A DNA stretch of 64,000 bases from Amaricoccus macauensis (GTDB lineage: Bacteria > Pseudomonadota > Alphaproteobacteria > Rhodobacterales > Rhodobacteraceae): the NCBI RefSeq assembly GCF_014201905.1, contig NZ_JACHFM010000002.1:558001-622000 (forward strand), read 5' to 3'. The stretch's first letter is position 1. Every line of letters begins with the position of its first letter. The notes beneath the pieces are model-generated. The model had not been told where the DNA came from and made no database searches. It was given only the letters and a program-made list of their open reading frames with translations. Positions 7,269 through 10,551 of this stretch are shown piece by piece. The translations under genes and the position numbers were made by a program.

Positions 7269-8123
7269 CTAACCCGCTGGCAGCGGCCGGGCCGCGTCGC
7301 GAAACTCCGACCACGGGTCGGGCGCGTCAAGCCGGGCCGGGGCATTCCGCACGGTGAAATGATCGGGGCCGATCGCTGTCCCGAGCTCGCCCCACGCGAG
7401 TGGCATCGAGACCGGCGCACCCGGCCGGGCGCGCGCGCCCCAGGCAACCACCGCCGTGTTGTTGCGCCCGTTCCGCAGATAGTCGATGAGAATGCGCCCC
7501 TTGCGGTCCGCCTTGGCGACGGTCGCCACATAGCGCTCGGGCGCCTCCGTCGCCATGGCGTGCGCCATCTGGTCGGTGAACGCCTTGACCGCATCCCATC
7601 CTGCGCGCGGGACGAGCGGTGCGACCACGTGAAGCCCCTTGCCCCCGGACGTCTTGACGAAGGCGGCGAGCCCGGCCGCCTCCAGCCGCTCGCGGATTTC
7701 CCGGGCAGCGTCGATCACCGCCTGCCAGTCCACGCCCTCGCCGGGGTCGAGATCCATCACCAGCTGGTCGGGGTGCTCGAGATCGGCCCGCGTCGCCTGC
7801 CAGGTGTGAATTTCGAGGGCGGCGCCCTGCACCAGCGCCGTTAGTCCGTCGAGATCATCGACCGCGATGATCGGTGCGTCGCTCGAGTCGCCCGGATCGT
7901 CGAAAGCCTCGATCTCGTCGCCCATGCCGCGCCACGGATGCTTCTGGAAGAAGCACGTGCCGTTGATCCCTTCCGGACAGCGCAGGAGTGCGATCGGTCG
8001 GTCGATGAGATGCGGCGCGATGCGCGGCCAGACCCGCACGTAGTAGTCCGCAAGCCCTTGCTTGGTCAGACCGACGTCGGGCCAATAGACCCGGTCGGGA
8101 TGGGTAAGGGCCAGCGATCGCAT
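7269..8123 (-). CDS. ligD: Stand-alone LigD-type polymerase/primase domain
   Basis: Archaeo-eukaryotic primase-like polymerase of the non-homologous end-joining family, 284 residues, matching only the polymerase domain of LigD. Visible motifs are the opening ALTHPDRVYWPD, the metal-binding pair MDLDPGEG, the nucleotide-binding SGGKGLHV and the third acidic motif LIDYLRNGRNN. The ligase and phosphoesterase domains of full LigD are absent, and neither ku nor a ligase gene is in the window. The ATG at 8123 is preferred over an in-frame TTG at 8138. Expected role is gap filling or short RNA/DNA synthesis in double-strand-break repair. The domain assignment is strong; the biological role is inferred. 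Confidence 0.9.
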   Translation of the reverse strand: MRSLALTHPDRVYWPDVGLTKQGLADYYVRVWPRIAPHLIDRPIALLRCPEGINGTCFFQKHPWRGMGDEIEAFDDPGDSSDAPIIAVDDLDGLTALVQGAALEIHTWQATRADLEHPDQLVMDLDPGEGVDWQAVIDAAREIRERLEAAGLAAFVKTSGGKGLHVVAPLVPRAGWDAVKAFTDQMAHAMATEAPERYVATVAKADRKGRILIDYLRNGRNNTAVVAWGARARPGAPVSMPLAWGELGTAIGPDHFTVRNAPARLDAPDPWSEFRDAARPLPAG

Positions 8124-8276
8124 CCGCAATGAACGCAAGCGACGGCCACAGGGTTCCGGCAGGGGTTCCGGTTGTGGCGGATATGCCTCGGCCGGGCGGC
8201 ATCCGTCGGCGGCGACTTGCCCGGACGGGCGTGGTATCCAAGATCCCGCGGAAGGATGACCCCGCCCGGGAGTGAT

Positions 8277-8597
8277 ATGGTGATGATGCGTTTCAGTCTG
8301 GCAAAGGTTCTCGCCCCTCGGCTCGTCGCCACGGGGCTTGTCGCCGCGGGCCTTCTGGCGGCCGGGCTCACGGTCGCGCCGGTTCGGGCGCAGGAGCGTG
8401 AGAAGTGCTTCGGCGTGGCGAAGGCCGGCCAGAACGAGGGTCTTGCATCCGGGCCGGGCAAGAGCACGATCGACTTTCAGGGCGATGCGTGGGTCTGGGT
8501 TCCGGCGGGCTCCTGCGCCACCATCACCCTGCCGGTGCAGGGCGACGGCACCCCGCGGCGTGGCGCGATCCAGCCGCTGGCCCGCGATCGGGGCTGA
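8277..8597 (+). CDS. DUF2282/bufferin-like secreted protein with two cysteines lost
   Basis: A 106-residue exported protein with a signal peptide ending PVRAQ and the DUF2282 hallmark [12 protein letters not shown], followed by [18 protein letters not shown]2282 proteins, now called BufA1-type bufferins, normally carry four cysteines. The two middle ones (NDC...SCAG in the family pattern I recall) are missing here, replaced by NEGLASGPG. Only the first and last cysteines remain. No modifying enzyme genes (DUF692 or DUF2063) are adjacent. The ATG at 8277 follows CCCGGGAG. It is convergent with the next gene, 3 nt apart. Family placement is from memory and moderately confident. Confidence 0.7.
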
Positions 8598-8600
8598 GCC

Positions 8601-9395
8601 TCAGCGTGTCACGAGCGTCACCGGGCTCGGGCAGGCCGTGCCACTCGCGTCGGCATAGCCTCGCCGGAACGCCGCCTCTCGCTCCTCCACCGTGCCTTCG
8701 CCGAAGGTGTCGAGCTCGGGCGGGATCGGCCGCCCGACGGACGCGAAATCCGCGGCGATCGTCCGGGTCGAGCGGACCAGCCGGCCCCAGAAAGCATCCG
8801 GCACTCCCCCGAGGCTCGACCGGGTCCCCCACGCCCAGGCGCCGGTCAGGCAGTCTGCCTGCAACGCCAGACCCAGCATGATGTCGGTGCGTCGCTTCTT
8901 GCGCGCGCCGATCATGTCGAGCGCGGCCATGTCGAGGATATCGCTCTCGCGCTGGCGGTGCTCGGCCGCGAGGCGTGCGGCCGCCAGCACCACCGCGAGT
9001 TCGGCATCGCCCTTGAGACGGGCGACCAGCGACTCGAGGTAGCCGAGATCGAAGGCCGCCGTGCCGGTCTCCGGGCAGTAGAAGACGCCCCGCCCGCTCA
9101 CGCCGGCAGCACAAACCGAAGATGTGGCGCCACGGAAGAACATGAGCTCCGCGCGCCTCGCACCGGGTACCGCGCGCCTCGTTGCCGCATCGGCCTCGGC
9201 AAAGGCCGCCTCGGCACGGCGGGCGATCGCCTCGCTGCTGAAGCTGAGATCGGCAGCGGGGGGCACGACGCGCATGGGCGCCGTCGCCCAGCCCCAGACC
9301 GCACCAACCCCCGCAAGGCCGAAAAGGACGGCAAGAACCGACCAGATGCGCAAAGCGGTCGACGAGGGCGTGTGTGTCGGGTCAATCCTCGTCAT
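8601..9395 (-). CDS. YpfJ-family putative metallopeptidase lacking HExxH (pseudoenzyme)
   Basis: A 264-residue protein with an N-terminal membrane anchor (about 16-38) and the frame of the YpfJ/neutral zinc metallopeptidase family. Retained features are MFFRGATSSVCAAG, GVFYCPETG with its paired cysteine, ALQADCLTGAWAWG and a late FRRGYADASG. Where the family has the zinc-binding HEVGHH, this protein reads LAAARLAAEHRQ, so the HExxH motif is gone. The acidic residue normally just before QADC is also replaced. It is probably a periplasm-facing pseudopeptidase. It is convergent with the bufferin-like gene. Family recognition is moderate to good; inactivity is inferred. Confidence 0.65.
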   Translation of the reverse strand: MTRIDPTHTPSSTALRIWSVLAVLFGLAGVGAVWGWATAPMRVVPPAADLSFSSEAIARRAEAAFAEADAATRRAVPGARRAELMFFRGATSSVCAAGVSGRGVFYCPETGTAAFDLGYLESLVARLKGDAELAVVLAAARLAAEHRQRESDILDMAALDMIGARKKRRTDIMLGLALQADCLTGAWAWGTRSSLGGVPDAFWGRLVRSTRTIAADFASVGRPIPPELDTFGEGTVEEREAAFRRGYADASGTACPSPVTLVTR

Positions 9396-9499: not shown

Positions 9500-10081
9500 G
9501 TGCTACGACGGGTCTATGAGTGGACGCTGTCGCTCGGATCCTCGCGTCATGCGGTCTGGGCGCTCGCAGCCGTCAGTTTCATCGAGAGCTCGGTCTTCCC
9601 GATCCCGCCGGATGCGCTTCTCATCCCGATGATCATCGCGGATCGCTCGCGCGCATGGCGCCTGGCACTGATCTGCACCGTGGCGTCCGTGCTCGGCGGC
9701 TTTCTCGGCTACGCCATCGGCTACTATGCCTTCAGTGCGATCGGCGAGCCGCTGCTGCGCTTCTACGGCATTTCGGAGCAGTACCTGCACCTCGAGCAGC
9801 TCTATGCGAAGTACGGGGCATGGCTCATCATCATCAAGGGCGCGACGCCGATTCCGTTCAAGCTGGTGACGATCGCGAGCGGCGCGTTCCACTTTCCGCT
9901 GCTCATCTTCGCGGTGTCGGCGATGATCTCGCGTGGTATCCGCTTCTTCCTGATCGCGGGGCTGCTCTGGAAGTACGGTGAGCCGATCCGCGACTTCATC
10001 GAACGTCGCCTTGGTCTTGTCTTCAGCATCGCCGTCGCGCTTCTGGTCGGCGGCTTCCTCCTGGTCGGATTGGTCGGATGA
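9500..10081 (+). CDS. DedA/YqaA-family membrane protein
   Basis: A polytopic inner-membrane protein of the DedA (VTT/SNARE-associated) superfamily, 193 residues, closest in pattern to YqaA. Typical elements are the re-entrant segment FIESSVFPIPPDALLIP (about 28-45), a glycine-rich segment FLGYAIGYYAF, the late motif KGATPIPFKLVTIASG and a C-terminal hydrophobic helix. Family members are linked to lipid flipping and envelope homeostasis. The start is GTG. The gene overlaps dsbB by 4 nt, so the two are co-translated. Confidence 0.85.
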   Translation: MLRRVYEWTLSLGSSRHAVWALAAVSFIESSVFPIPPDALLIPMIIADRSRAWRLALICTVASVLGGFLGYAIGYYAFSAIGEPLLRFYGISEQYLHLEQLYAKYGAWLIIIKGATPIPFKLVTIASGAFHFPLLIFAVSAMISRGIRFFLIAGLLWKYGEPIRDFIERRLGLVFSIAVALLVGGFLLVGLVG

Positions 10082-10551
10082 ACACTCTGCAACTTCGGGC
10101 GCTCGGGCCGACCCTCGGCTCGCTCGCGCTGCTTCTCGGGGCCTATGGCTTTCAGTACATCGGCGGGCTCCAGCCCTGCCACCTCTGCCTGCTGCAACGC
10201 GCGCCGCACGGCATCGCGATCCTGATCGGGATCCTGATCCTGGCCTGGCCGGTGCGCGGGTTCGCGCTGCTCGCCGGGCTCGTGGTGCTCGCGGGCGCCG
10301 TGATCGCCGGCTACCACGTGGGTGTGGAACAGCACTGGTGGGCGGGTCCCGCGAGTTGCACGTCGGCGGCGCCGGTCACCGGCGACCCCGGGGCGCTCCT
10401 CGACCAGATCCTCGCGACGCCCACCGTGCTCTGCGACGCGATCGCGTGGAGCTGGCTTGGCATCTCCATGGCCGGCTGGAACGCGATTGCCTCGCTCGTG
10501 CTCGGCTGGCTCTGGTTCCGGGCCTACGCCTCCAGCTCGGCGTCCCAGTAG
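10078..10551 (+). CDS. dsbB: Disulfide bond formation protein DsbB
   Basis: Inner-membrane quinone reductase that reoxidises DsbA-type thiol oxidases. The 157-residue protein has four hydrophobic segments, the first redox pair in QPCHLCLLQR (about 36-45) and the second pair in the periplasmic loop (ASCTSA and VLCDA). It overlaps the DedA-like gene by 4 nt, suggesting a small envelope operon. Its 3' end overlaps the convergent HNH gene by 28 nt. Confidence 0.9.
   Translation: MNTLQLRALGPTLGSLALLLGAYGFQYIGGLQPCHLCLLQRAPHGIAILIGILILAWPVRGFALLAGLVVLAGAVIAGYHVGVEQHWWAGPASCTSAAPVTGDPGALLDQILATPTVLCDAIAWSWLGISMAGWNAIASLVLGWLWFRAYASSSASQ

Follow-up and report, generated by a model that had tools for sequence, protein, structure and literature searches.

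A genus-restricted, probably non-catalytic member of the YpfJ zinc peptidase family in Amaricoccus macauensis

The window analysed here (the whole stretch of 64,000 nucleotides of Amaricoccus macauensis contig NZ_JACHFM010000002.1, positions 558,001 to 622,000 of the forward strand) contains an open reading frame whose product resembles the YpfJ-type zinc peptidases without having their zinc-binding HExxH motif. Pseudoenzymes are common, and the question raised by this locus is whether the gene encodes a maintained protein that no longer acts as a peptidase or is a duplicate on its way to decay. A sequence-only reading had favoured the former and described a repurposed pseudopeptidase in which both metal-binding histidines were lost and the family frame was kept. 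The gene and the predicted membrane segment of its product are as follows.

8601..9395, minus strand: pseudopeptidase gene, PF04228 homologue without a zinc site (264 amino acids, ATG start; Pfam and orthologues)
9297..9353, minus strand: predicted membrane anchor, residues 15-33, followed by a predicted periplasmic domain (Kyte-Doolittle mean 1.96)

A Pfam search assigned the product to PF04228 (Zn_peptidase) with 58.5 bits (cut-off 23.2, E=1e-15), so the family membership proposed from the letters alone is borne out. PF04228 is the only Pfam family recognized in the protein, residues 80-255 aligning with profile positions 112-287, and on these scores the match is not due to chance. Orthologues scored between 33 and 112 bits against the same profile. 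All eight have an anchor-like hydrophobic segment, and no other segment exceeds 1.6 on the Kyte-Doolittle scale after residue 80. A profile search of the genome identified two PF04228 genes, the pseudopeptidase gene and, on another contig, an intact paralogue (412 bits) with HEVGH and ELQADC motifs, the existence of which had been left as a point to check.

Residues were scored by aligning the eight copies of the second, pseudopeptidase type with 63 active homologues. The positions that bear on catalysis and scaffold are listed below.

8958..8975, minus strand: R141-L-A-A-E145-H146, in place of the HExxHH site (alignment of eight orthologues with 63 active homologues)
8865..8867, minus strand: A177, replacing the third zinc ligand Glu of ELQAD (alignment)
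8853..8855, minus strand: D181, the Asp of ExxxD, kept in 8/8 (alignment)
9111..9113, minus strand: C95, in SSVCAAG, kept in 8/8 (alignment)
9075..9077, minus strand: C107, in VFYCPE, kept in 8/8 (alignment)
8850..8852, minus strand: C182, in ALQADCLTGAWAWG, kept in 8/8 (alignment)
8631..8633, minus strand: C255, kept in 8/8 (alignment)
8679..8681, minus strand: R239, kept in 8/8, equivalent by numbering offset to Arg268 of KPN_02809 (alignment)

Where active relatives read VIAHEVGHHVQ, the pseudopeptidase reads LAAARLAAEHRQ. The paralogue residues H164, E165, H168 and E200 correspond to R141, L142, E145 and A177, so that the first His, the Glu and the second His of HExxH as well as the Glu of ELQAD are replaced. 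H146 preserves the final His of HEVGHH, a residue that is not among the zinc ligands. By analogy with the gluzincin ExxxD pattern, rather than from a solved structure, we take the Glu of ELQAD to be the third zinc ligand. In thermolysin-like enzymes the Asp of ExxxD contacts the first zinc-binding His. The loss of both metal-binding histidines is therefore real, and it goes further than first described: the sequence-only reading overlooked the catalytic Glu and the third-ligand Glu, and also the losses at the Y160, T254, H255 and W264 positions.

The same loss runs through the orthologues. The first His, the Glu and the second His of HExxH are each found in none of the eight, nor are the Thr-His of the THG motif and Tyr160; the third-ligand Glu is kept in one, the closest relative (G004, which reads ELQGD). 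Fixed in seven of the eight are R141, L137 and A242, at positions where active homologues have an invariant or nearly invariant His, Tyr and Trp. The two orthologues in G003 and G010 further lack H146 and the segment preceding the DC motif. Kept in all eight, in agreement with the claim of a preserved family frame that included the SSVCAAG and VFYCPE cysteines, are the four family cysteines, G103, F105, D116, Q148, D181, G185, W187, R239, F243 and G246. The lost catalytic and the kept scaffold positions are all at least 95% identical across the 63 active homologues, and the loss pattern, as read from this alignment, splits chemistry from scaffold. Misalignment of the motif was considered and rejected, HExxH, HxxEH and HxxxH being absent anywhere in all eight proteins. 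The histidine count is zero in three orthologues and two or three in the remaining five, and a content this low excludes, at the level of protein sequence, a relocated His-based zinc site for the clade.

Compared with YpfJ and its relative KPN_02809, the protein has in common the profile match, the N-terminal anchor, the four cysteines, the QADC-LxGxW core and the equivalent of Arg268, but it lacks HExxH, the third-ligand Glu, the THG motif and the N-terminal MxWxxRxSxNVEDRR segment. In KPN_02809, substitution of the first motif His (H171S) nearly abolishes activity and reduces zinc binding, and Arg268 was modelled near the zinc (PMC3269727). The pseudo-metallopeptidases Gone early (neprilysin family), FtsHi and the alpha subunit of mitochondrial processing peptidase (MPP) are similar in that key active-site residues are gone while the fold is kept and selection maintains the protein, but they belong to families other than PF04228. 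YpfJ and PF04228 are absent from a review of such pseudoenzymes (PMC11266112), and no report of an inactive PF04228 clade was found in the literature searched.

An AlphaFold model of the pseudopeptidase was confident (mean pLDDT 84, above 90 over most of the domain; pTM 0.79), and the order of its elements equals that predicted for an active homologue; the input alignment of 46 rows included active relatives, of which the predicted fold is thus not independent. A sequence search with the active copy as query returned no solved structure of the PF04228 family, and Foldseek gave no significant match for the model in the PDB. With VIA-align 2, the best solved matches were mostly zincin-like metal hydrolases, among them YbeY (Z 7.7, rmsd 3.6, 130 aligned residues), abylysin (Z 7.5, rmsd 3.3, 105 aligned) and selecase (Z 7.4, rmsd 3.0, 106 aligned); the active homologue reached Z 10 against DPP III and ECE-1 and 9.9 against BepA. 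Since the pseudopeptidase values are all below 8 and weak by themselves, the case for the predicted zincin-like fold comes chiefly from sequence similarity to the family and from the confidence of the model.

Profile searches identified pseudopeptidase orthologues in eight of the eleven genus genomes and an intact copy in ten, the active copy accompanying the pseudopeptidase in all eight. The genomes without pseudopeptidase are G001 (85% complete), G007 and G009 (both nearly complete). In a tree, the eight copies form a single, fast-evolving clade with 100/100 support on a very long stem, and the loss of the active site most simply happened once. With so long a stem, the duplication is placed broadly, before or early in the genus. 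The presence of the gene in the G003/G010 branch as well as in the rest of the genus suggests an early gain followed by later losses; because it is missing from the nearly complete G007 and G009, the pseudopeptidase is not essential across the genus. A search of the DedA and DUF2282 loci in G001, G007 and G009 brought up no gene remnants, though the contigs of G001 and G009 end nearby. Outside the genus, HExxH and E-x-x-ADC are kept at 142 of 142 scorable PF04228 loci, a few of which may be the same gene counted twice; five fragmentary or frameshifted loci (L161 and L165-L168) were left unscored. No further member with the loss was detected among the readable loci from profile searches of 295 genomes of the family and 385 of the class, a sample of mostly one genome per genus from which part of the matches was read.

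Two side observations were made in these searches. At L165 (G149), L166 (G121) and L167 (G259), in three other genera, the sole PF04228-type match is split over two frames, which suggests frameshifted active copies or assembly errors. Tandem PF04228 copies occur in two other genera (L017 and L032 on G018:C56; L160 on G043:C142), and both G018 copies have HExxH.

Selection was most readily assessed in the closest orthologue pair, G003 and G010, with 65.7 differences over 220.7 synonymous sites versus 89.3 over 514.3 non-synonymous sites (Fisher p=0.0002). The dN/dS of the pseudopeptidase is about 0.53 in this pair and that of the active paralogue about 0.22; the other pairs are much less informative for this ratio, being near saturation. 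In a simple neutral-drift simulation that allowed substitutions only and covered the G003/G010 distance, about 0.4 to 0.5% of runs ended with both the frame and the four cysteines intact; an intact frame by itself was left in 12 to 48%, owing to the G+C-rich genome. A ratio below 1 together with this rare neutral survival indicates, from sequence comparison, that the pseudopeptidase gene is under selection, which is relaxed relative to that on the active enzyme.

The genes around the pseudopeptidase gene are the following.

8172..8597, plus strand: DUF2282 (Buf1 bufferin-like) gene with two instead of four cysteines (Pfam PF10048 E=4.4e-13, cysteine pattern, synteny)
9500..10081, plus strand: VTT/DedA-like membrane protein gene, divergent neighbour in conserved synteny (Pfam PF09335)
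10078..10551, plus strand: DsbB disulphide-forming protein gene, conserved synteny (Pfam PF02600 E=9.6e-34)

By gene calling, the order DUF2282 (convergent), pseudopeptidase and VTT/DedA (divergent) is found in five of the eight genomes; tblastn adds G005 and, without DedA, also G003, so that DUF2282 adjoins the pseudopeptidase in seven. G010 has the pseudopeptidase beside DsbB and its DUF2282 gene on a different contig. DsbB and an HNH gene are next in all genomes with the pseudopeptidase. The conserved neighbourhood argues for orthology; it names no function. Between 9395 and 9500 of the window, on the DedA-DsbB side, a TTGACG-like box (CGTCAAG from the pseudopeptidase side) is present in seven of the eight genomes, with GGTCAAG in G010; it may serve the DedA-DsbB promoter as a -35 element. 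Beyond the DUF2282 gene, at 7269-8138 on the minus strand, lies a gene for a LigD primase-polymerase domain protein (PF21686 E=6.4e-90), no ligase domain being found in the same reading frame.

The convergent, cysteine-depleted bufferin-like neighbour noticed in the sequence-only reading is genuine, as its PF10048 match shows. Its true start is probably near 8277, and it runs tail to tail with the pseudopeptidase gene, the stop codons being 3 bp apart. Buf1 bufferins have four cysteines, an outer pair joined by a disulphide and a central pair converted to copper-sequestering thiooxazoles (PMC12452194). The neighbour is like them in its family, its predicted secretion and its first and last cysteines, but unlike them it lacks both central, copper-site cysteines. 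This two-cysteine form, with the outer pair only, occurs in 10/10 DUF2282-bearing genus genomes, and the four-cysteine form is found in other sampled genera of the family. The MNIO enzyme is common in the family (177 of 248 genomes); none was found in the genome of the window, nor in ten of the eleven genus genomes; G001 has part of an MNIO where a contig ends. Given the two-cysteine form throughout and the missing MNIO, gene content suggests that most of the genus kept the precursor after losing the enzyme that modifies it. G002 has an extra four-cysteine DUF2282 gene at a contig end (L270, G002:C162, near the 3' end), and the membrane protein beside it resembles NrsF by eye, an arrangement known from bufferin clusters.

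As read from these comparisons, the gene has what defines a pseudoenzyme, namely homology to an enzyme, lost catalytic residues and maintenance of the gene. The most sober rival explanation is that the duplicate no longer does anything and is slowly decaying, loss of the active site being the first sign. Fast evolution, a high pN/pS at long distances, the further losses in G003 and G010 and the absence from some genus genomes would fit such a course; full-length frames with all four cysteines in eight diverged genomes, the dN/dS of G003 and G010, which is significantly lower than 1, the 0.4 to 0.5% survival in the neutral simulation and the synteny common to the orthologues argue against it, and we consider decay improbable. 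Owing to those frames, those cysteines and that ratio, the earlier suggestion that this is no decaying gene is supported; its other half, repurposing, is an interpretation, and the active paralogue is the more strongly constrained of the two. That the protein is still an enzyme, its new site on the old fold being metal-free or differently metallated, is very improbable: the polar residues D116, Q148, D181 and R239 are invariant, but they are equally so in the active family and give no sign of a new site, and the few histidines of the orthologues form no common motif. A zinc-independent stand-in under Zur control was also considered and rejected, Zur-like palindromes upstream being no more frequent than shuffled expectation with a crude consensus.

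The most specific rival holds that the protein regulates or partners the active YpfJ paralogue, as a heteromer or decoy, by analogy with the MPP alpha subunit, which lacks the zinc residues and serves the active beta subunit. An active paralogue does accompany every pseudopeptidase, and among metallopeptidases, pseudoenzymes with an effect on an active relative are frequent (PMC11266112). The two genes are, however, on different contigs without a common operon, and G007, G009 and many other genera of the family have the active copy alone, from which it follows that YpfJ needs no such partner generally; such a role may exist but is unlikely. The remaining proposal, that the pseudopeptidase and the two-cysteine bufferin-like protein form a paired, demetallated and disulphide-held envelope module derived from two former metal proteins, appears improbable; the two genes are convergent, and convergent genes need not be co-expressed.

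The explanation we prefer, at a probability of roughly 0.6, is that of a genus-restricted pseudopeptidase whose periplasmic domain, held together by disulphides, would bind and no longer catalyse. That the protein is catalytically dead and maintained is very probable. A copy of a YpfJ-type zinc peptidase would have arisen once by duplication, before or early in the genus. The zinc ligands and the catalytic Glu would have gone, whereas the four scaffold cysteines would have stayed in a zincin-like fold still anchored in the membrane. Seated in the periplasm on its N-terminal anchor, as is probable from the predicted topology, the domain may be braced by two disulphides, putatively C95-C107 and C182-C255. 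R141, at the position of the first zinc-binding His in seven of eight orthologues, may form a salt bridge with the invariant D181 and so replace zinc as a helix lock. The protein would then bind rather than cut. Its former substrate groove could hold a protein or peptide of the envelope, or it might associate with another protein, for which the active YpfJ, whose gene lies elsewhere in the genome, is a possibility. In this precise wording the binding or adaptor mechanism is tentative, and we hold it at somewhat less than even odds.

PF04228 is widespread and nearly unstudied, and a natural clade stripped of nothing but the chemistry tells scaffold residues from catalytic ones. With it one can ask cleanly whether YpfJ proteins do anything besides proteolysis, and the adjoining bufferin relative without the modified cysteines is a natural test for a copper-free function of such peptides.
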